64,000 nucleotides of DNA from NCBI GenBank assembly GCA_018241025.1, contig JAFEEQ010000011.1, forward strand, positions 372,001-436,000, in the 5' to 3' direction. This stretch comes from Pseudomonadota bacterium (GTDB lineage: Bacteria; Pseudomonadota; Alphaproteobacteria; Micropepsales; Micropepsaceae). A program made the position numbers and the translations under genes. The notes below the pieces were generated by a model. It was not told the DNA's origin and searched no databases. It worked only from the letters and a program-made list of their open reading frames with translations. Shown here one piece after another: positions 1 to 13,809 of the stretch (positions within the stretch are counted from its first letter, which is position 1; every line of letters begins with the position of its first letter).

Positions 1-1768
1 TGCCGGTGCCGGTCTCGGCGTCGTTCCACAGCCTGAGCGCGCCAGCCAGATCGACGCCGTAGAGCTCGGCGTCGCGGTTGACGAACTGAAGCTGCACGAA
101 GCCGCTCGGCATCCCCATCATCATGAGGTCTTGCAGCTTGGTCGCGTCGATGAAGTTGTCGACATAGGTGTAGTAGCCGGAGAGCTTCACCTCCCACGGC
201 GTGTCGCCCCGGCTCTTCCAGACGCCGCTCGCGCTGACGGTGTTGGCGACTTCCGGTTTGAGGTCGAGATTGCCGACATAACCGTTGCCGTCGCCGAACC
301 AGCCGATCATCTGACTCGACATCGCGCCACGGCCCCAGGTGTAGCGCTCGTACAGATTGGGCGAGCGGGTCTTGCGCGCATAGCCGAACTCATAGGTCGC
401 ACCGTCTTCCGCGGCGTAGCGTGCAAGGGCGGTGACATCGAGATTGCTGTCGTTGCGGGCATGGCCGACGGCATTGAACGCGGTGGCGGCCATCGCATCT
501 TCCATGCTCATCATGTCCGTCCAGGAATAGGGCTGGACGTTGCCGGCATTCATCGAGACGAAGTCGCCGCGTGCACCGAGCAGGGTCGACCAATGGCCGG
601 TCCAGGCTGCGTCCCACTCCGCGAACGCGCCGAAGCGGTCGCGTCTGCCGTCCACGACGTTGAGATAGGTCAGCGGTCCCATCATCATGCTGCCTGCAAC
701 CGGCGGCCACCAGTCGTCGAGTGTCATGTGGCGGTACTCGGCCCCGGCGCGGATCGTGTCGCGCTCATTGAGATTGGCCGTCACCTTCAGCGTGACGCCG
801 CCGTTCTGGGACTTTGTATCCATCGGCATCCCACCCATGGCCATGCCGCCCTTGTCGTCGAGGAAGTTCATCTCGTGACGAATATTTTGCCAGTAAGCGG
901 TGACCTCGACCGTGCCCCAGCCGAAGCTGCCGTCATACTTTCCGTTCACGAAGGCGGAGCGGTTGAACACCATGTCCATCCACTGGTTGGGATAGGCCTC
1001 GTAGGGCAGGTACTGCTGGCCGACCGTGAGCTGGAGGCTGTGCGCGCCGCTGCGTGCCGCGAGGGTCAGCGCGTGGTTCGCGGTCTCGAACTCGGTCGAA
1101 TGTACTTCGCCGTCATGGCCGCCGCCGTCATAGTTGCCGGACTGTGCGAAGGCGCCGGTATAGGCGATGTTGAAATCCTCGCCGGCGACGCTTGCGGACA
1201 GCGATGTGGAGAAGGCGTTGCCGTTGCTGCGATATGCAGCCTGCACTTTCGCGGCGGTGACAATCTCTCCGGTCGCAGAATAAGCCGGCGCAGCGGAGTT
1301 CACTTCGATGGTTCCGGCGATGCTGTCGCCGCCCATGCTCACCGGCGTGATGCCGGCGACGGCGGTTGCCGTTCCGACTTGTGCCGGGTCGATATAGGAC
1401 AGCGGCGAGTTCATGTGGTTGGGGCAGGCGACGCTGACCACCATGCCGTCGACGAGCACCAGAACGCGATCATCGGCGAGACCATGGATCGCAGGCAGGC
1501 TGGAAACGCCGCCGGCCTGATAGCTGCTCATGCCGGCGACGTCGTCGAAGAGCGAGGCGCTGTCGTTGCTGCGAACTGCGGTCTGCCGGATGACGTCGGG
1601 CGCGATTGTGGTGGCCGTCAGTGGCGCGTCGGAGACCGGCGCGGGCGACTCGACCGGAACCGGCGGCAACGGCGTCGCGTCCTCGGCATGAGCGGACGCG
1701 ACGGAAAGAGCGAAGGCAATGGATGTCAGTGCGCTGCAGGCGCGCAGGCGCGTGATAACGGATGTCAT
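1..1768 (-). CDS. TonB-dependent outer-membrane receptor, copper type (OprC/NosA-like), 3' end cut by window
   Basis: Outer-membrane beta-barrel that would import copper using TonB energy. Visible are a signal peptide (about residues 1-28, ending ASAHA), a plug domain (about 50-160, with the segment LVLVDGMVV) and the start of the barrel. The plug carries C115-P-N-H-M119 and the barrel carries H298-E-M300. This is the CxxxM...HxM arrangement known for copper binding in Pseudomonas OprC. A Met-rich stretch (GGMAMGGMPM) follows the HxM. The frame stays open to base 1, so about 589 residues are present and the C-terminus is missing. An AGGGG ribosome site sits 7 bases before the ATG. The DUF2946 gene lies 74 bp upstream on the same strand, a pairing often seen with copper receptors. 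Copper specificity is inferred from motifs only. Confidence 0.88.
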   Translation of the reverse strand, partial: MTSVITRLRACSALTSIAFALSVASAHAEDATPLPPVPVESPAPVSDAPLTATTIAPDVIRQTAVRSNDSASLFDDVAGMSSYQAGGVSSLPAIHGLADDRVLVLVDGMVVSVACPNHMNSPLSYIDPAQVGTATAVAGITPVSMGGDSIAGTIEVNSAAPAYSATGEIVTAAKVQAAYRSNGNAFSTSLSASVAGEDFNIAYTGAFAQSGNYDGGGHDGEVHSTEFETANHALTLAARSGAHSLQLTVGQQYLPYEAYPNQWMDMVFNRSAFVNGKYDGSFGWGTVEVTAYWQNIRHEMNFLDDKGGMAMGGMPMDTKSQNGGVTLKVTANLNERDTIRAGAEYRHMTLDDWWPPVAGSMMMGPLTYLNVVDGRRDRFGAFAEWDAAWTGHWSTLLGARGDFVSMNAGNVQPYSWTDMMSMEDAMAATAFNAVGHARNDSNLDVTALARYAAEDGATYEFGYARKTRSPNLYERYTWGRGAMSSQMIGWFGDGNGYVGNLDLKPEVANTVSASGVWKSRGDTPWEVKLSGYYTYVDNFIDATKLQDLMMMGMPSGFVQLQFVNRDAELYGVDLAGALRLWNDAETGTG

Positions 1769-5224: not shown

Positions 5225-5599
5225 ACTAGGGTGGTTTCAGACCATCCCGTGCCAGAAATCGCACGAACACTCTGACTGACAAGGATTATTTTTCTCACCC
5301 CGTATCGCTGCATGTTACGCCAGCCCGGCCACTTTGTTGGTATCCGTTCGCCCTACGACCGGATGCAGATTTATGGGCGACCTCACTGATCAAGAACTGA
5401 AAAATCGATGCGGGACGGCTTGAACCCCTCATTAGAAAAGCGGCGGACCGCGATTGCCGCCAAGGTGGCAGCGGCGCAACTTCGCGATTGTCGCCGAGGA
5501 AGTCGTCGCCAAGCGCGAGCGAGAGGGGCGCTCCGCGACCACCACTGGGAAGCCCCGCTGGTATGCATCCCTGCTTGGCAAGATCGGCGGCCGACCGGC
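5225..5599. other. Gene-poor junction between guaA and IS relic
   Basis: No intact gene is supported here. Several short frames are open but none has a recognisable domain. The part from about 5400 to 5600 may hold decayed sequence upstream of the transposase relic; I could not identify it. It marks the boundary between the conserved guaA side and the RiPP-like cluster. Confidence 0.5.
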
Positions 5600-5893
5600 G
5601 GGTGCTGCTGCCGACGCTGGCACTCGGCGATGTCGTCGTACCCGACAATCTGGGCAGCCATAAAGGCAAGGCGGTTCGCCACGCCATCCGCAAGGCCAGC
5701 GCCGATCTCGTCTTCCTCCCGCCCTGCAGCCCCGACCTAAACCCGATCGAGCAGATGTTCTCCAAGCTGAAAACACTGCTGCGAAAGGCCGACGAGCGAT
5801 CGGTTGAGGCAATGTGGAAGAGGATCGGGTCCCTCCTCAACCACTTTACCCGACGAATGCGGCAATTATCTCGCCAACTCGGGATATGTGTTA
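5600..5893 (+). pseudogene. IS630-family transposase, C-terminal fragment, frameshifted
   Basis: Only the C-terminal third of an IS630-type (DDE) transposase is left. It includes the conserved block DNLGSHKGKAVRHAIRK, the segment FLPPCSPDLNPIEQMFSKL with the final acidic catalytic residue, and the LLRKA...MWKRIG helix. Near position 5848 the frame shifts. The family ending (PDECGNYLANSGY) continues in another frame, so the gene is broken. The N-terminal two thirds are absent and I see no clear terminal inverted repeats. It abuts the end of the first oxygenase gene (stop at 5912) and sits exactly at the edge of the RiPP-like cluster, which hints that the cluster or this border arrived by transposition. 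Confidence 0.85.
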
Positions 5894-5911
5894 ACGCGAT
5901 CCGGTCATGCT

Positions 5912-6883
5912 CTAAGCTGGCGCGGCGTCGAACACGACCGCGACGCGAACCCCCGGTGTGTCTACCGGAGTCGACCAATGGGTGAGATAGGAGGGCAGGA
6001 TCGCCAGCCGCCCAGGGCGAGGATCGATCGTCAGGTCCGGCCAGCCTGGCGCCGACGCAGCGAGATCCTCGGGCGCCCCCACCCGCAGACGCCCCACGTC
6101 GCCGTCCCCATCCGGCACCGCGGCATAGAACACACCGGTGATCCAGCCGCACGGATGGATATGGCTCGCCGTATGGCCACCACGGGTGGAAACCACCGCG
6201 AGCGCCTCGATCGAGAGACGGGCCGGCATCCACGGCATGTAGCGAGCCGTCCTTGCGCGATAGGCTTCGAATTGCGCCGTCACCCACTGGATCAGCGCCG
6301 TGATCGGCGGATCGTCCCACGCGTGCAGATTGTCGATCCTGTGGCTGTCGCGCGTCGCCTGGCGCGCCGAAACCCAACAGCCCTCGGCGACACGCGCGAG
6401 CACCGCTTCGGCAATCGCGGACGGATCGGTCGCAAGCGCCGCAACCTCGCCGCGCGACTCGACATCGCGGACGCAGACCGCCTCGGGGCCGAGAAGGCGG
6501 GCCATCGCGTCAGTCGCGCCGACCTTGCTCAACTGGCGCAGATAATCCGCTACCATCGTCGCATTCGCCTCGCCGTTGTCGAAGAGCACGCGATATTCAG
6601 CAATCACCTCGTGCGGGTCGGAAGCGTCGAGGCAGCCGCGCACGCAGAGATTGCCTCCCGCTCGCACCGCGATAGCCCGCACCCGCGCGGCAGCTTCGCC
6701 CAGCCCGGCACGCGCGAGCATCTCCGCGTGAATGCCGCATGGCAACTGCGCGCCATCCTCCGAACCCAGCGCTGCGGAATAGCGCTCGAGTCCACCGTCG
6801 GCGTCGCCCGCCAGCATCAGTCGCAATGCGCTCGCGGCCAGGTTTTCGGCCGCCGTCGGCGCTTCGGGTCCGATCGATGGCAA
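5912..6883 (-). CDS. Putative 2OG-Fe(II) oxygenase (PF13759-like) in RiPP-like cluster
   Basis: Probable iron- and 2-oxoglutarate-dependent hydroxylase. The C-terminal half shows the family pattern: H241-I-H243 followed by PCGWITGVFYAAVP, then PGRLAILPSYLTH302W and a terminal RVAVVFDA strand. The N-terminal 150 residues are Ala-rich and helical, possibly TPR-like. The upstream frame is open to 6916, but I place the start at the TTG at 6883 because AAAGGAG lies 5 bases before it. The protein is then 323 residues. It is transcribed divergently from the next oxygenase gene. The substrate is unknown; given the neighbours, the precursor peptide or a sugar/lipid partner are candidates. Confidence 0.75.
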   Translation of the reverse strand: MPSIGPEAPTAAENLAASALRLMLAGDADGGLERYSAALGSEDGAQLPCGIHAEMLARAGLGEAAARVRAIAVRAGGNLCVRGCLDASDPHEVIAEYRVLFDNGEANATMVADYLRQLSKVGATDAMARLLGPEAVCVRDVESRGEVAALATDPSAIAEAVLARVAEGCWVSARQATRDSHRIDNLHAWDDPPITALIQWVTAQFEAYRARTARYMPWMPARLSIEALAVVSTRGGHTASHIHPCGWITGVFYAAVPDGDGDVGRLRVGAPEDLAASAPGWPDLTIDPRPGRLAILPSYLTHWSTPVDTPGVRVAVVFDAAPA

Positions 6884-6999
6884 TGCGGCTCCTTTTGTAT
6901 TTGCGGTGATCGCCAAACCTTCTATAGCTCCTGCATGCGCGCCGCTACTCCAGCTGTGTATGCGCGGGCAGCGCCCCGGCAGGGCGGCGGCGCCCTCAC

Positions 7000-7974
7000 A
7001 TGACCTTGCCTGCTACGCTCGATCTCAACCGCTTTGCCGAGTTCGCGGTCGCCGCTGGACCGGGCGGCGGCCAGGCGCTGATCGTCGATGCCTTTGGCGC
7101 GCGCACCGGGTTCCAGCGCCATCGGTTGCCGCCCGGTCCGCTGCGCGATCTGGCGATGACGCTGATCGACGAGCCGGCGCAGGCCGGCCACCGGCTGGCG
7201 CAGGCGAGCTTCGACGAAGTGGCTGCGCTACTCGACGCGGGCGTGATTTCGCCCAGGACGGGGCTGGTCGATGGCGCTCCATTCGCATCGCTGCCCCTGA
7301 TGCCGGCGGCGACAGAGCCCGCCGATCGGGCGTCGCCCGGCTGGCGGCTGGCTCGCGCGCTCTGTCCGCCGATCGCCGTGCTGGACGAATTCGTTCCGAC
7401 GCCGGTCGTCAGCGGCGCGGCCGAACATTTCGTCGCGGATGGACTGGTCGCGCTCGATGCGTTGCTGTCGGAACGGCTGTGCGACGGGCTCGAGCAATAT
7501 TACGCCAAACTGGCCGGGCTGGGGTTGATGGCTCGCGCGCAGCGCGGCGTGGACCGGCAGATCGCGTTCAGCGATCCGGCCGGACTGCGGCTGCAGCGCC
7601 TGCTGCAGCCGCTCGTCGCCGCGATCGTCGGGGTGTCGATTGGTCCCAGCTACACGCTGGCCTGCCGTTACGGGGTCGGCGCGGTGCTACCGATGCACAC
7701 CGATCGAGCGGCGTGCCAATATACGCTTTCGCTGCAACTTGGGGATGCTCCCAATGGGGCCGCCGCGCCCTGGCCGTTCCATATCGTCGAAAAATCCGGC
7801 GCCGTGCGGGATATCTTGCTTCGGCGCGGCGCGGGCGTCCTGTTCCTGGGACGCGAACGGGCGCATGGCCGGCCAGCGCTGCTGCCCGAGATGGTCGGCG
7901 GCACCCTGTTGCTGCACTACATCGACGCGGAGGCCGACCGCGGAAGCGATCAGTCCGACGCCCCCGTCAGGTAG
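7000..7974 (+). CDS. 2OG-Fe(II) oxygenase-like protein in RiPP-like cluster
   Basis: A 324-residue protein whose C-terminal domain has the iron triad pattern H233-T-D235 (in MHTDRAACQYTLSLQL) and H289, with R291 two residues on (AHGRPAL) as likely 2-oxoglutarate anchor. The N-terminal 180 residues resemble no domain I can name. The start ATG at 7000 has only a weak AGGGCGG upstream. Its 3' end overlaps the convergent pqqD-like gene by 25 bp. Fold assignment rests on these motifs and the beta-strand pattern. Peptide hydroxylation is the favoured role from context, in line with hydroxylases such as that of the canucin lasso locus. Confidence 0.68.
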   Translation: MTLPATLDLNRFAEFAVAAGPGGGQALIVDAFGARTGFQRHRLPPGPLRDLAMTLIDEPAQAGHRLAQASFDEVAALLDAGVISPRTGLVDGAPFASLPLMPAATEPADRASPGWRLARALCPPIAVLDEFVPTPVVSGAAEHFVADGLVALDALLSERLCDGLEQYYAKLAGLGLMARAQRGVDRQIAFSDPAGLRLQRLLQPLVAAIVGVSIGPSYTLACRYGVGAVLPMHTDRAACQYTLSLQLGDAPNGAAAPWPFHIVEKSGAVRDILLRRGAGVLFLGRERAHGRPALLPEMVGGTLLLHYIDAEADRGSDQSDAPVR

Positions 7975-8228
7975 GTGATGGCGCCCTGGGCGTCGAGCTT
8001 GGCAAGGAACGCGTCGACGTCGGCGCGGCACTGATCGGGCGAGACGGCATATTCCTCGCGCAGCGCATCGCAGATCGCCTCGACATCGTCGGTGGTGTCG
8101 AGCAGCTCCCAAATGCGTGTGCCCACGCCGCTGATCCCGAGATAATTGCCCTGCTCCGGGCTCATCATCACCAGACCGTCCCCGACCTGCGCGGAGAGCC
8201 AGTCCCCAGTCTTGCGAACGCGCGCCAC
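7950..8228 (-). CDS. PqqD-family peptide recognition protein (lasso B1 / RRE-like)
   Basis: A 92-residue PqqD-like protein. Family signs are the N-terminal strand with DGLVMMSPEQGNYLGIS, then GTRIWELLD and a helical C-terminus with EEYAVSPDQCRADVDAFL. Proteins of this fold (RRE) bind the leader of a RiPP precursor and present it to modifying enzymes; in split lasso systems this is the B1 protein. The GTG start has GGGAG 8 bases upstream. It is the last gene of the kinase-sulfotransferase-pqqD operon. A role in PQQ synthesis is unlikely because no pqqA/B/C/E genes are near. Leader recognition of the peptide at 10161 is the natural prediction. Confidence 0.82.
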   Translation of the reverse strand: MARVRKTGDWLSAQVGDGLVMMSPEQGNYLGISGVGTRIWELLDTTDDVEAICDALREEYAVSPDQCRADVDAFLAKLDAQGAITYLTGASD

Positions 8229-8239
8229 TCGCCGTCTCC

Positions 8240-9115
8240 CTAAGCTACGGAATCTGCGTGCGCGAGCACATAGCCCAGCCGCCGCATCATCGGCCCGTGT
8301 GCGCGTTCAATGCATAGGAGCTGATCGCGAGTCAATGTCGTGCGCCATTCGCCGGCCAGCCCCTTGCGGAAGAAGGGCGCGGCGGATGGATCACCTGGCC
8401 AGGCGCGCTCGCGGAAACCCGCCGCCCGCTCGCGCGCCTGCAACGCGGCGAACGAGGAGCGCTCGACTGCCTGCTCCACGCGCGCGCGGTCCACCGTCTC
8501 GCCAACAAACGCCAGCGCCTCGGTGAATACCGCGACAGTATCGGCCAGCAGATCCTCGTACCGCACCAGATGGACGGGCAGGTCGCGCTGGTTGAGCCAG
8601 CTCGCGGCGTGGCCGCTCCAGTCGAGCAGCCGCTGCCGAAACTGAAGCGAAACGCCATTGTCATCGAGGCAGATGCCGCCGGCCGGATCGTTGAGGATCG
8701 CGATAGCCTGATCCAGCGTCACCCGGCTGTGGTGGGCCATCGATGCCGTCACGTCGCGCGGATCGCGCACGATCAGGATCGCCGCGCGTGCGCCGCGCGC
8801 CAGCATTGCCTCGCCCATAGGTGTCGGCAAATAGGCGTCGTGGACCTTTACGAACGCGGTTGTCGGGCCTGCCCCCGCGGATTCCGCAAGTGCCGCATAG
8901 ACGCTGGGACGCAAGGCGTCGGCCTCATCCGGCGTCAGCAGCGTCGATGCGATTAGCAGCAAGTCGTCGAACGGTGCGCGACCGCCTGCCGTCCAATCGG
9001 CGGTCTGTAGCGTGTTGAGGTCGATCGGCCCGGCTTGCATGAGGTTGGCGAGCAGGACCCGCAACCAAGTGTTGCCCGGCTTGGGATAGGAAGCGAGCCA
9101 GACCGGTGTGGTCAT
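8240..9115 (-). CDS. Sulfotransferase domain protein (PAPS-dependent)
   Basis: Transfers sulfate from PAPS to a hydroxyl or amine. The N-terminal PAPS 5'-phosphosulfate loop is present at residues 9-17 (SYPKPGNTW), with K12 as the phosphate-binding Lys. The 3'-phosphate site appears as VRDPRDVTASMAHHS. The rest follows the classical cytosolic sulfotransferase layout, including RYEDLLAD. Length is 291 residues. Its ATG overlaps the stop of the kinase gene (ATGA at 9112-9115), so the two are translationally coupled. The pqqD-like gene follows after 11 bp. The likely acceptor is a peptide hydroxyl, possibly one made by a neighbouring oxygenase; that link is inference. Confidence 0.88.
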   Translation of the reverse strand: MTTPVWLASYPKPGNTWLRVLLANLMQAGPIDLNTLQTADWTAGGRAPFDDLLLIASTLLTPDEADALRPSVYAALAESAGAGPTTAFVKVHDAYLPTPMGEAMLARGARAAILIVRDPRDVTASMAHHSRVTLDQAIAILNDPAGGICLDDNGVSLQFRQRLLDWSGHAASWLNQRDLPVHLVRYEDLLADTVAVFTEALAFVGETVDRARVEQAVERSSFAALQARERAAGFRERAWPGDPSAAPFFRKGLAGEWRTTLTRDQLLCIERAHGPMMRRLGYVLAHADSVA

Positions 9116-10029
9116 GCCGGACGCCCCCCGAGACCGATCGCGTCCCAATGCCGCTCGAGCGACCGCAGCACCTGCTCCATGCTTGCGAAGTCGCGTCGTC
9201 GCGTAAGGTGATACACGCCGGCATCGCTGGCGATTCGAGTCGCCGCAGCAAAATACAGCCCCGCCTGCCCCAGGCGATCGACAAGGCGCGGCCGATAGGC
9301 GTTTTCGTGCAGCTTCGCCGCAGCCACGGCGGGGGGCAACTGCTGGATGCCGATCACGGCCGGTGGGCGCGGCTCGCGCAGGGCATAGATCGCGCCGATC
9401 GGCATCGGCGTCCGATCGGCCGCCGGAGGCTCGACATAATATTTGCGAATGCTGGGCCGCACCGCCTCGCGGGCCTTGTCCGACATAGCGAGCGCGTCGA
9501 TCGCCTCGCGCCACAGCTTCAACTGGCGGCCATCCGGGTGGACGATCGGTACCGGATCGATCGTGACCGCGCAGATGTCGTCGGTCACCACCGGGTAGCC
9601 CCGGTTCGCGAGCGCGGCGGCAATGGTCGACTTGCCGGCCCCGGAAGCGCCGCAGAACAGAATCGCGCACGCACCGACGCGAACCGCGCTCGCGTGCAGC
9701 ACGACATAGCCGCGAAGATGGAGCAGGACGCCGAACACGCTGCCCGCGAGGAAGATCGCGAGGTCCGCCGGCGTTGCCGTGGCGGCCGCGTCGAACAGGA
9801 TCGTGTCGTCGCCAACGACGAGGAAACGCGCGACGCCCGGCACCCGGAGCAGGAACTGGTCGCGCGTCATTTCCCAGGTCGGCGCGACCGCGATCGGTGC
9901 ATCCAGCGCCTCCGGTACGATTGCCGATCGGATCGTTATCTCGGCGGGTCGATTGCTCGTAGCCGCCAGCCTCCCCGGCAACTCGATCTCGCAGTCAACC
10001 ACCAGGCTGGAGATATTGTAGGAGAACAT
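9112..10029 (-). CDS. HPr-kinase/phosphorylase-like kinase (lasso tailoring type)
   Basis: A 305-residue protein with an HPrK-like C-terminal kinase domain. The P-loop is CGASGAGKST with K133, and VVTDD follows as the expected acidic motif. There is no HPr substrate gene nearby. Homologues in lasso loci (paeninodin type) phosphorylate the C-terminal Ser of the precursor, and the precursor candidate next door ends in Ser54. The ATG has AAGGG 6 bases upstream. The gene begins 131 bp from the divergent precursor gene, so the two probably share a promoter region. A role in carbon-catabolite control cannot be excluded but fits the context poorly. Confidence 0.83.
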   Translation of the reverse strand: MFSYNISSLVVDCEIELPGRLAATSNRPAEITIRSAIVPEALDAPIAVAPTWEMTRDQFLLRVPGVARFLVVGDDTILFDAAATATPADLAIFLAGSVFGVLLHLRGYVVLHASAVRVGACAILFCGASGAGKSTIAAALANRGYPVVTDDICAVTIDPVPIVHPDGRQLKLWREAIDALAMSDKAREAVRPSIRKYYVEPPAADRTPMPIGAIYALREPRPPAVIGIQQLPPAVAAAKLHENAYRPRLVDRLGQAGLYFAAATRIASDAGVYHLTRRRDFASMEQVLRSLERHWDAIGLGGRPA

Positions 10030-10160
10030 TTCGAACCCTTAGAAATGGCGAACGGAAGGACAAGCGCCAGAAAGTTCCCCAACTTTGCACAAAAGGCCTT
10101 GCGCCCGAGTCTCGTTGGTCGATAACCACGTCGTGGAAACCTGTGTTGAGGACGGTACAG

Positions 10161-10325
10161 ATGGGGAACGAACGGCCGGGCAAGGAAATTTCCTCCCAAC
10201 AGCAGGCGCCAATGCTGAAACCGTGGAAGGCGCCGGACGTGACGATCTCGCAAGTTCGCAACACCCGGACCGGCATGATCCACAACGGCGTCGAGCCGTC
10301 GTCGCCGCCGCAAGTCCCTTCGTGA
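10161..10325 (+). CDS. Candidate lasso-like RiPP precursor peptide (54 aa)
   Basis: Small ORF between the kinase and cyclase genes, on the strand opposite to both. The ATG at 10161 has a good ribosome site (GAGGA at 10148-10152). The leader holds KPWKAPDV (W22, P25). If the core starts at G38, its sequence is GMIHNGVEPSSPPQVPS. E45 is then residue 8, allowing the Gly1-Glu8 macrolactam typical of lasso peptides; residue 54, the last, is Ser. The residue at -1 is Thr and another Thr is at -3; the usual lasso Thr at -2 is Arg, a mismatch. The tail has four prolines and three serines, possible sites for hydroxylation, phosphorylation and sulfation. A GTG at 10143 could extend it by six residues. 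Not recognised as a known peptide. Confidence 0.6.
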   Translation: MGNERPGKEISSQQQAPMLKPWKAPDVTISQVRNTRTGMIHNGVEPSSPPQVPS

Positions 10326-10338
10326 GCGGCGGGCGGAA

Positions 10339-12255
10339 CTAACAATTTCGCCTCTCGAACCATTTGACATAGCGTGCCGCCAGCACGGCGCGCGAGGCCC
10401 TTATGAGCAACGCCCCCGAAGGCGGCTCTGGTTGCGAAGGGTCGAATATCCCGTCCAGCCTGGCGAAGTCGACATGCTGGGCGAGGGCTGCATCGCCAGC
10501 CAGCTGCGCGGCTTGCTCGCGTAGTTCCGGCTGCAGCGCTTCGAGCATTTCCAGCTGATCGGGCAGCAGCGGATCGGCGACAGCGTCGCGGGTCTGGAAT
10601 TCCGCAGGATAGACGCCGGCCAGCGCGCGCCGCGCGAGGTAGCGGTTCCGACCGCCTGCCACGTAAAGATGTTCAGGGATCGCCAGCCCAAGTTCGACCA
10701 CGCGCTTGTCCATGAACGGGCGGGTCATCGACAGCCCGTGAATCGCCGCCTCATTGGTCAGGCGCCGGCGCGGCCATTCGATCCCGCGCCGTAGCGCATG
10801 CAGTGATCGCTTGCGCAGCCACGGAAGCACGATCGCGGCGCCGATCTCGTGACGATCGGCTTCGCCGTGCCGGAACAGGCTATCCGCGAATTCGGGCGCG
10901 ATCGGAAATTCGGCGAACGGCGCGCTTCGATCCAGCTTCCGCAGCGCGAGCCACCGTCGGATCGATTCGGGCAGCAGTGGATAGACCACCTCGCGTTTGA
11001 GCGTGTCGATCAGGCCCCTGCCGGTCACACGCCGATGCGCCGCGAATTCGCGCGCAAAGCGCGCCCAGCGCCCGGTGCGCATCAAATGTGCCAGCACTCC
11101 GTTGCCGCGCGGGTTGAGCGTATCGTCGCCGCCATTCCCATCCATGATCAACCGCGCGCCAGCGCCGGCGGCCTCGCGGAACAGCGCGTCATGCAGGAAG
11201 TTCGGGCCGCGCAACGGATAGTCCGCAGCATGGAACAAGGTCTCGATCCGCGTGAAGATCGTTTCGTCGCGCCGCACGAAATAGCGAACGTCGAGGTGCG
11301 GCATGTCCCGGCGGCACAGGTCCACCCACCGCCGGGGATGGCGCAGCGGCCCGTCATAGTCCTCGGGCATGACGCACGACACCGCGATCAGCCGGTGCCC
11401 CTTGCCGGCGAGTGCCGGCCCCGCCAGCCCGGCAATCGCCGAACTGTCGAAGCCTCCGCCGTGGCACAGCGCCGGCGGATCGATCAGCCGACGCACGCGG
11501 CACGCCACGGCTTCGGCGAGCACCGTGCGATAGGCCGCGATATAATGGGCCTCGTCGCGCCCGACATGCTCGGGGGCCGCGCGCGGCTCCCAATAGCGCT
11601 GCCGGCTGATCGTTCCGTCGATCGAAACCGAGAGCGTCGAGCCGCCGGGAATCCCGGCGATCCCCTCGAACGCCGACTGGCTGCCGCGCGGCCGGAGTTC
11701 CCACATCATGTAGCGCCCGACGTGCGCCATGTTCAGCTTGCGCGGCACGCCTTCGAGCGCCCACAGCGCCTTGATCTCGGTGGCAAAGACCAGGAAATCG
11801 GGGCCGCGGTGCCAATGCACCGCGCGCTGTCCCATATGGTCGCGGCAGAGCAGCAGCCGTTGCGCGCGCGCATCCCACAGCGCGAAAGCAAAATCGCCGA
11901 CCAGATGCTGCGCGCAGTCGGCACCCCATTGGTTATACGCACGCAGGATCAGCGCGCTGTCCGGCAGTTCGCGCAGCTCGGCCGGGGGTATGCCGAAGCG
12001 CTCCGACAGCGCTTCACGATTATCAAGCCTGGCGTCCGCTACCAGAATGGAGCCGTCGTCGCCCAAAACGGGTTGGACTTCGAACCGGTCTTCGCGATTG
12101 ACGCGCGTCAGGCAATGACCGAGCCCGACCGGTCCAGTTGCGACCGCCTTTCGCCCGTGCGGCGCGTGGTGCGTAAGAATACGGCCCATCCGCTCGAGAT
12201 CGGTCTGCGCGACCGGACCGCCATCGAAGCGCAGCACGCCGAAAATTGCGCTCAC
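10339..12255 (-). CDS. Asparagine-synthetase-like protein, probable lasso-type macrolactam cyclase
   Basis: A 638-residue protein with an N-terminal glutaminase-like domain (about 1-200) and a C-terminal ATP-dependent synthetase domain. The protein begins M-S-A-I-F-G, so the Cys2 nucleophile of glutamine-dependent asparagine synthetases is absent and glutamine hydrolysis is not expected. The synthetase loop reads HGGGFDSS and a second motif is DGNGGDD. The SMTRPFMDKRVVE helix and RNRYLARRA are family-like. Loss of Cys2 is common in lasso cyclases, which activate an Asp/Glu side chain by adenylation for attack by the core N-terminus. The start is GTG and the preceding ribosome site is weak. 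It is divergent from the Stf0 gene. Confidence 0.82.
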   Translation of the reverse strand: MSAIFGVLRFDGGPVAQTDLERMGRILTHHAPHGRKAVATGPVGLGHCLTRVNREDRFEVQPVLGDDGSILVADARLDNREALSERFGIPPAELRELPDSALILRAYNQWGADCAQHLVGDFAFALWDARAQRLLLCRDHMGQRAVHWHRGPDFLVFATEIKALWALEGVPRKLNMAHVGRYMMWELRPRGSQSAFEGIAGIPGGSTLSVSIDGTISRQRYWEPRAAPEHVGRDEAHYIAAYRTVLAEAVACRVRRLIDPPALCHGGGFDSSAIAGLAGPALAGKGHRLIAVSCVMPEDYDGPLRHPRRWVDLCRRDMPHLDVRYFVRRDETIFTRIETLFHAADYPLRGPNFLHDALFREAAGAGARLIMDGNGGDDTLNPRGNGVLAHLMRTGRWARFAREFAAHRRVTGRGLIDTLKREVVYPLLPESIRRWLALRKLDRSAPFAEFPIAPEFADSLFRHGEADRHEIGAAIVLPWLRKRSLHALRRGIEWPRRRLTNEAAIHGLSMTRPFMDKRVVELGLAIPEHLYVAGGRNRYLARRALAGVYPAEFQTRDAVADPLLPDQLEMLEALQPELREQAAQLAGDAALAQHVDFARLDGIFDPSQPEPPSGALLIRASRAVLAARYVKWFERRNC

Positions 12256-12299
12256 CGGCGGTAACCGCTATCGACTGCGCGCAAAGGTCCCTCCCGCCC

Positions 12300-13133
12300 A
12301 TGATCCGCTCGTCCCACTCGCGAGACTATAGCGTGACGCAAACCACCGCCGATTTTCCCGAATGGCACGGCCCGCCGGCGCGAACGCTGGTGCTGTGCGC
12401 GCATCCGCGCTCGGGCAGCACGCTGCTCGCGGAGGCAATCGCCACCACAGGCCGCCTGGGGCGCCCGCTCGAATATTTTCAGGCCGGGCACCGTCCGCTG
12501 TTCGAAGCCCGTTGGAAGCCGGCCGACCTCCTTGAATATGTCGCCATCCTGCATCGCAGGCGTACTGCGCCGACAGGGGTGTTCGCTGTCAAGCTGTTCT
12601 GGCGCGGCCTCGTGTCGTTTGCGCATGAGCGGGCGACCGGGGCGCCGCTTGCGGCCGACATTCCCGAAGCGCTGCTGCCTGACCAAGGTTATCGCGACCT
12701 CGCCGCGGCCATCGCCGATGCGTTTCCCGCACCCATGTTCGTGCATATCGTTCGGCGCGACTTCATCGCTCAGGCCGTCTCCATTCATCGCGCAACGCAA
12801 AGCGGAATCTGGCTGGCGCGGGCGGGGAGCAACGCACCTGGTCCAGCACCGGTCCGCTACGACTTCGCGCGCATTCTGGAGTATGTCGGGCGCATTCGGC
12901 GCAGCAACGCGCACTGGCAGGCATTCTTCCGTGCGAACCGGATTGCGACGTATCCGATTGTCTATGAGGATCTGGCAAGCGATTATCCGGGCGTACTCGC
13001 CGGATTGTTCGAATGGCTTGGCGAGCCGGCCACGGTGTTCGCGCCGCCGCGACTGCGCAAGCTTGCCGATGCGCACAGCGAGGCGCTCGCGCAGCGGTTC
13101 CGCGAAGATTTTGCGCGCTTTTCGCGCGGCTGA
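12300..13133 (+). CDS. Stf0-type sulfotransferase
   Basis: A 277-residue Stf0-family sulfotransferase. The PAPS loop is AHPRSGSTLL (P36-R37-S38-G39-S40-T41) followed by the Stf0 signature GRPLEYFQ. The RRDFIAQAVSIHRA segment gives the 3'-phosphate-binding Arg. The best-known Stf0 sulfates trehalose in mycobacteria; the acceptor here is unknown. I chose the ATG at 12300 over an earlier in-frame start at 12246 because the earlier one overlaps the divergent cyclase start at 12255. AAAGG lies 12 bases upstream, rather far. Two sulfotransferases of different subfamilies in one peptide cluster is unusual. Confidence 0.87.
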   Translation: MIRSSHSRDYSVTQTTADFPEWHGPPARTLVLCAHPRSGSTLLAEAIATTGRLGRPLEYFQAGHRPLFEARWKPADLLEYVAILHRRRTAPTGVFAVKLFWRGLVSFAHERATGAPLAADIPEALLPDQGYRDLAAAIADAFPAPMFVHIVRRDFIAQAVSIHRATQSGIWLARAGSNAPGPAPVRYDFARILEYVGRIRRSNAHWQAFFRANRIATYPIVYEDLASDYPGVLAGLFEWLGEPATVFAPPRLRKLADAHSEALAQRFREDFARFSRG

Positions 13134-13146
13134 GGCTTTCGGCGGT

Positions 13147-13809
13147 TCATGTCGCCACGTTCGGCTTCAGCCGACTGAACCAGCAGTTTACCGCGAAACG
13201 CGAATCGGCGAACTGCTGCGACGGGCAGTCGACCGGTAGCACTTCGTGCGGCGCCCAGGCCGGAAACACGACCAGGCTGTTGTGAAGCGGCTCGATGTCG
13301 ACGAAGCGCGCCGCCGCGTCGCCGATGGCGTGGAGGCGCAGCGCCCCGCCCGTGAATGCCTTGGGTTCGCGATGGAAATAATAGACGCAGCTGAGCACGC
13401 GAACGTGCCTCAATTCGGCATAGCGGGAGACCTGCGTATCGACGTGACGCTTGTAAAAGGCGCCGTGGCCGTGCGCGACGAGTTCGAGCTCCGTCGATTC
13501 AACGATGAATTCAGGCATGCGCAACGCCGCGAAAAACCACGGCCGCCGTTCGATAAGCGCTTCCTTTAGCGCCGTGAGGATGCCGCCGGCTTCGGGCAAG
13601 CGGCGCGACTGTCGGATCGCCAGATCGACTCCCCTTGCGCCTACCCCGGCATCGACAAAAGCCAGCTCTCGGTTCACTGCATCCTCGAGCAGCGCCAGCC
13701 CATCCCGTGCGTCGAGGAAATCCGGCACCTGAAGATAGGGCGGGATGATTTCCAAAGGGGCAAGCTCCTTCCCCGAAATCTCGTTGCCGGGCACTCCAGC
13801 GCCGTCCAC
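13147..13809 (-). CDS. 2OG-Fe(II) oxygenase, prolyl-4-hydroxylase-like
   Basis: Iron/2OG oxygenase of the P4H type. The triad is clear: H122-V-D124 in FYKRHVDTQ and H188 in WAPHEVLPVD, with an Arg in ADSRFAVN as the 2-oxoglutarate anchor. Between them are LSCVYYFHREP and GGALRLH, typical of P4H proteins. The frame extends to 13923, but I start at the GTG at 13809, which has AAGGGAG 7 bases before it; a TTG start further in, also with AAGGAG, is possible. The length is then 220 residues. It converges on the Stf0 gene. The precursor candidate has four prolines in its tail, making it an attractive but unproven substrate. Confidence 0.83.
   Translation of the reverse strand: MDGAGVPGNEISGKELAPLEIIPPYLQVPDFLDARDGLALLEDAVNRELAFVDAGVGARGVDLAIRQSRRLPEAGGILTALKEALIERRPWFFAALRMPEFIVESTELELVAHGHGAFYKRHVDTQVSRYAELRHVRVLSCVYYFHREPKAFTGGALRLHAIGDAAARFVDIEPLHNSLVVFPAWAPHEVLPVDCPSQQFADSRFAVNCWFSRLKPNVAT

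Follow-up and report, generated by a model that had tools for sequence, protein, structure and literature searches.

Gene content of the locus

The subject of this analysis is a locus at positions 5912-13809 of a 64,000-nucleotide stretch of an alphaproteobacterial genome (family Micropepsaceae; contig JAFEEQ010000011.1, positions 372,001 to 436,000), which as a whole is referred to below as the window. An initial annotation had described this locus as lasso-like and as equipped with a rare combination of tailoring enzymes. Scans with the Pfam and NCBIfam models confirmed the families it had listed, namely a cyclase, a PqqD-like protein (i.e. a RiPP recognition element, RRE, where RiPP stands for ribosomally synthesized and post-translationally modified peptide), an HprK-type kinase, two mutually unrelated sulfotransferases (PF00685 and PF09037) and three 2-oxoglutarate (2OG) dependent oxygenases, the third of which was recovered by structure prediction (Table 1). 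The locus works like a lasso peptide gene cluster, and the other loci of its cyclase clade are often complete ones; since the B2 leader peptidase (PF13471) was looked for and is absent from it, we do not call it a complete lasso peptide gene cluster.

The lasso-like assignment and the link to the kinase hold up. The best curated match of the cyclase is the lasso cyclase model NF033535, with 318 bits at a cut-off of 525 bits, and the best solved relative of the PqqD-like protein is the lasso RRE TbiB1 (PDB, 6.6e-9). A scan of our genome collection yielded about 32 relatives of the cyclase that are about 38-50% identical to it across most or all of its length. The clade of this cyclase occurs mainly in Sphingomonadales and in the window's own genus, that of Rhizomicrobium electricum, with single members in metagenome-assembled genomes labelled Hyphomicrobiales, Rhodospirillales and Gemmatimonadaceae. 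Many members sit in lasso-type loci that are complete in other respects. The tree of the cyclases places the window protein with those of loci L032 and L068. The former (G066:C1:2200000-2219999) holds its closest relative (about 50%) and has nearby only a PqqD gene and a gene for a Sulfotransfer_3-like protein (ST3); this locus yielded no precursor that carries the leader motif.

The kinase carries the motifs LHAS, GASGAGKS and TDDICAV, which make up the His-Lys-Asp-Asp set of the known lasso kinases (PMC9266682, PMC10368454), and its stop codon overlaps the start of the first sulfotransferase gene (ST1) by 4 bases. In ST1, whose solved relatives are of the SULT/Teg type, the motifs for binding of the 5'- and 3'-phosphates (YPKPGNTW, KVH, RDPRD) and the motif FFRKG are intact, as are HPRSGSTLL and GRPLEYF in the second, Stf0-type sulfotransferase. 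Among 96 genomes Stf0 has one close homologue only (47% identical), which is encoded 1.6 kb from a lasso-type cyclase in locus L046.

Of the three oxygenases, the one encoded next to Stf0 is related to the Pseudomonas prolyl hydroxylase (4iw3) and to PHD2/EglN1, has the motifs HVD, PHEV and R intact and is called P4H (prolyl-4-hydroxylase) here. The 2OG assignment of the oxygenase at the left edge, ox1, comes solely from PF13759, its single-sequence AlphaFold2 model being poor; homologues of ox1 flank lasso cyclases in four loci, and other lasso-type cyclases of the related genomes G065 and G066 have ox1 homologues next to them. The remaining protein, ox2, matches no Pfam or NCBIfam family. 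In its C-terminal half, however, H233xD235...H289...R291 is invariant in an alignment with ten homologues, and its AlphaFold2 model, in which the predicted local confidence (pLDDT) is about 75-90 over most of that half, matches the prolyl-4-hydroxylases 4iw3 and 4j25 in a Foldseek search (E 5e-11, target-normalised template-modelling score 0.70-0.75). Because of this invariant motif and the match of the model, ox2 is, as modelled, a real third 2OG oxygenase.

Table 1. Genes of the lasso-type locus, with window coordinates
Feature	Position	Strand	Evidence and remarks
ox1, 2OG-Fe(II) oxygenase with N-terminal, apparently helical part	5912..6817	-	PF13759 5.7e-13; longest open reading frame to 6916
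ox2, third 2OG-Fe(II) oxygenase (predicted)	7000..7974	+	HxD...H...R motif and AlphaFold2 model; double-stranded beta-helix at about residues 130-320, N-terminal part unassigned
PqqD-like RRE (B1 leader-binding protein)	7950..8228	-	PF05402 8.7e-23
ST1, PAPS (3'-phosphoadenosine 5'-phosphosulfate) dependent sulfotransferase	8240..9115	-	Sulfotransfer_1 PF00685 2.1e-20
HprK-type peptide kinase	9112..10029	-	TIGR04352 7e-11; PF07475 8e-7, under the Pfam cut-off
Precursor peptide (predicted), 54 amino acids	10161..10325	+	GAGGA ribosome-binding site, WxxP leader, Thr(-2), Glu9, C-terminal Ser
Divergent lasso-type isopeptide cyclase, GATase_7 and Asn_synthase	10339..12255	-	NF033535 1.1e-94
Stf0-type sulfotransferase	12333..13133	+	PF09037 8e-32; PDB 1tex
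P4H, PHD/EglN-like prolyl-hydroxylase-type 2OG oxygenase	13147..13809	-	PF13640 1e-17

The precursor peptide

The likely substrate, and most likely also the small open reading frame (ORF) that the initial annotation had mentioned, is the plus-strand ORF between the kinase and cyclase genes. It is convergent with the cyclase gene, as in most relatives, and has a good ribosome-binding site, GAGGA, some 10 bases ahead of its ATG. Its translation, MGNERPGKEISSQQQAPMLKPWKAPDVTISQVRNTRTGMIHNGVEPSSPPQVPS, is predicted to be cut into leader and core as MGNERPGKEISSQQQAPMLKPWKAPDVTISQVRNTR|TGMIHNGVEPSSPPQVPS, where the leader holds the motif WKAPDV (WxxP) and a Thr at position -2 and the core a Glu at position 9 and a Ser at the C-terminus. 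The relatives, too, keep a small ORF with such a leader next to the cyclase, and we collected the small ORFs next to the cyclase that have a WxxP leader as a precursor family, setting the start of the core from the leader alone (Thr, Ser or Ala at -2).

In this family an Asp or Glu occurs at core position 7, 8 or 9 in 40 of the 45 precursors (in 2000 shuffles the mean was 9.1 and the highest count 19), a pattern that fits the ring rule of lasso peptides. A C-terminal Ser terminates 46 of the 48 leader-bearing ORFs, as found by a search that was blind to the last residue, versus 10% of ORFs at large. This near-universal Ser fits the substrate type of the characterised lasso kinases (PMC9266682) and thereby supports the C-terminal phosphorylation that had been proposed for the locus. 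For the window core we thus predict a nine-residue ring, Thr1 to Glu9, and a nine-residue tail, PSSPPQVPS, that ends in the putative phosphorylation site.

A frequent Lys near the core start prompted us to consider a macrolactam via a Lys side chain in place of the N-terminal lasso closure; we rejected this for the window since its core contains no Lys and since the position of the acid is fixed relative to the predicted N-terminus. Tyr sulfation as the general role of ST1 was rejected as well, both for the window, whose core has no Tyr, and for several relatives. Some loci have several distinct precursor genes at one cyclase, namely three in L040 (11977-13030, G029), three in L095 (11926-12629) and also several in L079, suggesting that a single machinery may serve several peptides.

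Conserved gene associations in related loci

The profiles that we built were run over about 100 loci, and counts for the cyclase clade refer to its 34 loci of at least 12 kb; as these loci are related to each other, Fisher values for co-occurrence overstate significance. Within the clade HprK and ST1 are each present in 30 of 34 loci, always together, and in all 41 of the loci at large that have both, the two genes form a same-strand tandem in which ST1 comes after HprK. Among Bacteroidota and Acidobacteria and in a gammaproteobacterium, too, there are lasso-type loci that contain ST1. A second association concerns the Asp/Asn beta-hydroxylase AspH (PF05118), which occurs in 16 clade loci and is there always joined by ST3 as second sulfotransferase (some ST3 members score under the Pfam cut-off); over all loci, ST3 accompanies AspH in 19 of 20 cases.

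A kinase, two sulfotransferases and an oxygenase are thus not the rare combination that had been supposed: the full set occurs in 18 of the sampled loci, mostly of Sphingomonadales, and the same gene sets are found with other cyclase clades as well (L045, L046), which makes the combination a recurrent recipe. Neither of the two observations by which the initial annotation would have been refuted was made: the genes stay together in the relatives, and the small ORF with its leader is kept near the cyclase. The window locus has neither AspH nor ST3, but instead the adjacent pair of P4H and Stf0, both of which recur in comparable loci. In L068 the P4H homologue lies 70 bases after the B2 gene on the same strand, and P4H homologues adjoin cyclases also in L045, L187 and L188. 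The cores of the window and of L068 have four Pro each, that of L045 has one, and that of L089 has six in a locus without P4H, so that a link between P4H and Pro-rich cores is only suggestive. The window's genome contains a second locus, of the kinase/ST1/AspH/ST3 kind (L038, on contig C34 of G000), which includes collar-domain genes and has its own precursor, with the core GINPSYTFESRGVNSSTAGS.

Collar-domain genes and flanking genes

Three tandem genes with a phage-collar domain (PF07484, 'microcystin-dependent protein') adjoin the cyclase in 21 of the 34 clade loci, usually together with a GNAT and a DUF6916 gene. The loci with such triplets are L034 (11558-13202), L038 (12423-14061), L045, L046, L072, L074-L096, L099, L100, L101, L109 and L119; lasso-type loci of a gammaproteobacterium, of Bacteroidota and of a Verrucomicrobiia bin have them as well. 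Of the collar triplets in the window's taxonomic family, about two thirds have a lasso-type cyclase within a few kb. The window locus itself has no collar-domain genes, in contrast to L038 in its own genome. No publication was found in literature searches that combined lasso peptides with collar or phage-tail proteins, or collar proteins with asparagine synthase.

Triplets also exist apart from lasso genes (L203-L208, in G045, G044, G048, G023, G027 and G029). These six mostly have the GNAT gene and sometimes a DUF6916-like gene, and they lack ST3, HprK and ST1, which implies that the collar genes form a module separable from such lasso loci, though it often accompanies them. That AspH and ST3 are part of this module is disfavoured, as the six lasso-free triplets include no ST3 and a single, lone AspH (in L206); this favours, and does not settle, that AspH and ST3 belong with the lasso genes.

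On its left the locus directly borders on a fragment of an IS630-like DDE transposase (window 5488-5985; PF13358, 1e-14), which overlaps the 3' end of the ox1 gene on the opposite strand and hints at past mobility. A gene for a TonB-dependent receptor (window 2-1669; PF00593/PF07715), truncated by the start of the window, was not assigned to the locus because rsmB-like and guaA-like genes intervene.

Comparison with known systems

The locus resembles the paeninodin/syanodin type (PadeK, ThcoK, SyanK) in its HprK-type kinase with the His-Lys-Asp-Asp set, its separate PqqD (B1), its lasso-type cyclase and the C-terminal Ser of the precursor. It differs in that it has neither B2 nor transporter, has two sulfotransferases and three 2OG oxygenases, a predicted core that starts with Thr, and a cyclase that is divergent and scores under the NCBIfam cut-off. 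With the canucin A cluster it shares a 2OG-Fe(II) enzyme (CanE, aided by the RRE, acts as a hydroxylase on the linear precursor; PMC9266682), whereas the window has three of these, from PF13759, PF13640 and no Pfam family, as well as sulfotransferases and a kinase. The BsfA system of Bradymonas (BsfK, BsfB1, BsfB2) is, likewise, a Gram-negative kinase-type locus with a non-canonical residue at leader position -2; however, BsfK acts on Ser3, a BsfB2 is present, and the extra genes are a kinase and a nucleotidyltransferase, with no sulfotransferase or oxygenase described (PMC10368454). Comparable, too, are the loci L038, L045, L046, L072 and L074-L096 of Sphingomonadales and the genus Rhizomicrobium, which have the same or a related cyclase, the HprK-ST1 tandem, PqqD and the precursor pattern. 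Most of these likewise contain a further sulfotransferase along with a 2OG enzyme, yet mostly AspH and a Sulfotransfer_3-like protein, usually with three collar proteins, where the window has P4H and Stf0 and no collar proteins.

A proposed pathway and its alternatives

We propose, with a probability of about 0.65, that the locus makes a tailored lasso-type peptide that is presented by PqqD, phosphorylated, sulfated and hydroxylated, cut by B2 in trans and closed into a ring. The direct basis consists of the family identities, the motifs, the conserved gene partnership, the precursor pattern and the absence of B2 and transporter genes; the reactions, their order, the sites, the threading of the product and the cleavage in trans we infer. 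PqqD would bind the WxxP leader of the 54-residue precursor and present the core to the tailoring enzymes. The kinase would then phosphorylate the C-terminal Ser18, and ST1 and Stf0 would transfer sulfate from PAPS to hydroxyls of the core, some of which are probably made by the 2OG oxygenases, with the PHD-like enzyme probably acting on the four prolines of the tail. The tailoring would take place on the linear precursor, before B2 from the other lasso locus of the genome removes the leader behind Arg(-1) and the cyclase links Glu9 with the amine of Thr1. The known lasso kinases and CanE act on linear precursors, and the RRE helps CanE and BsfK (PMC9266682, PMC10368454); by analogy with PadeK, ThcoK, SyanK, CanE and BsfK, presentation by PqqD, tailoring ahead of leader removal and ring closure as the final step may be expected here (PMC9266682, PMC10368454, PMC8498205). 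Sulfation of the peptide would be without precedent. Hydroxylation followed by sulfation, as had been suggested, is sound as chemical logic and finds its only backing in the pairing of AspH and ST3 genes in relatives; as a pathway order we keep it as a proposal.

Several observations weigh against this reading. No product of the locus is known, and it contains neither a B2 gene, which lasso clusters normally include, nor one for an ABC transporter, which is frequent in them though not universal; the initial annotation had missed this point (an ABC transporter is nearby in 5 of the 34 clade loci). Both the cyclase and PqqD, whose closest curated model is the lasso PqqD NF033536, score below the curated lasso cut-offs. 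In the precursor family the -2 residue is Thr in 25 of 45 members and otherwise Ser or Ala, the acid at core 7-9 is missing from five of 45, and the first core residue, predicted to be Thr in the window, is Gly in 2, Ala in 13 and Lys in 9 of 45. A lasso peptide family in which this residue is rarely Gly is unusual. As the window core has no Tyr, its sulfation would need Ser, Thr or a new hydroxyl, which leaves Thr1, Ser11, Ser12 and Ser18, besides any hydroxyls that the oxygenases introduce, as possible acceptors. Finally, four of the seven P4H homologues are found away from lasso genes, and AspH and ST3 in the relatives are encoded mostly beside collar-protein genes, so that they could act on the collar proteins.

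The lack of a leader peptidase might mean that B2 is dispensable, i.e. that the macrolactam is formed on a peptide that keeps its leader or is cleaved by other means, or that the core is set free by general proteases and then cyclised. B2 is nearby in 20 of the 34 clade loci and absent from the window locus and from the vicinity of 13 others (14/34), and the B2-less loci are scattered across the cyclase tree, as such a variant would have it. We nevertheless regard it as quite improbable, for precursors from loci with and without B2 agree in the pattern of the -2 residue and of the ring acid, a Lys that could stand in for the N-terminal amine is absent from the window core, and all nine further genomes checked have a B2 somewhere. 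These include seven with B2-less loci, in each of which B2 is encoded elsewhere (7/7), as it also is in G000, G016, G065 and G066. The only B2 of the window's genome lies on contig C8, in a separate, canonical kinase-type lasso locus (L042) with its own cyclase, RRE, kinase, nucleotidyltransferase and ABC transporter. Given the B2 genes elsewhere and the precursor pattern that is independent of a local B2, processing in trans from this other locus would be the simplest and likeliest reading.

The extent of the pathway and the target of the sulfotransferases allow for alternatives too. It is unlikely, in our view, that the pathway is limited to the precursor and cyclase together with PqqD, the kinase and ST1, with Stf0, P4H, ox1 and ox2 as chance neighbours that have other substrates. 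The distribution of P4H homologues away from lasso genes speaks for this, as do the ox1-type oxygenases, which are common genome-wide, and ox2, whose homologues are weak (about 30%) and absent from the lasso-type loci scanned, such that it is so far unique to the window locus. On the other hand, the sole close Stf0 homologue and three of the seven P4H homologues in the 96 genomes adjoin lasso-type cyclases, the P4H of L068 directly follows B2 on the same strand, and ox1 homologues flank lasso cyclases in four loci. We likewise consider it doubtful that a phosphate-linked sugar, or some other small molecule that is co-produced, serves as the substrate of the sulfotransferases in place of the peptide. 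The nucleotidyltransferase of pseudomycoidin adds hexoses to the C-terminal phosphate (PMC8498205), the closest curated model to Stf0 is the trehalose sulfotransferase, and the absence of Tyr from the window core points the same way; yet no sugar-transferring gene was recognised in the window locus, and ST1 follows the kinase also in many loci without a nucleotidyltransferase.

Implications

Kinase-type lasso peptides and 2OG-dependent hydroxylation (canucin) are already known, and a sulfotransferase gene has been noted in some kinase-type lasso clusters of Firmicutes (review PMC8498205). No sulfated lasso peptide was found in the literature searched, which included a 2026 review and left most subscription papers outside the search. 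Sulfation, if true, would be a new lasso modification, to which the conserved kinase-sulfotransferase tandem offers a direct, testable entry, the precursors and cut sites of some 45 peptides having been predicted. That oxygenases are paired with sulfotransferases suggests a logic of making a hydroxyl and then sulfating it, and the recurrent lack of a dedicated leader peptidase makes cross-talk among the lasso loci of one genome testable. Tentatively, and at somewhat less than even odds, the locus may represent an as yet undescribed class of lasso-type peptides that is widespread in Sphingomonadales and relatives and in which phosphorylation, sulfation and hydroxylation make up a triple decoration, with AspH/ST3 or P4H/Stf0 as interchangeable pairs, and often with three collar-domain proteins that may carry or use the peptide. 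Judging by the relatives, the mix of chemistries is no one-off, but a recurring and essentially unstudied recipe.

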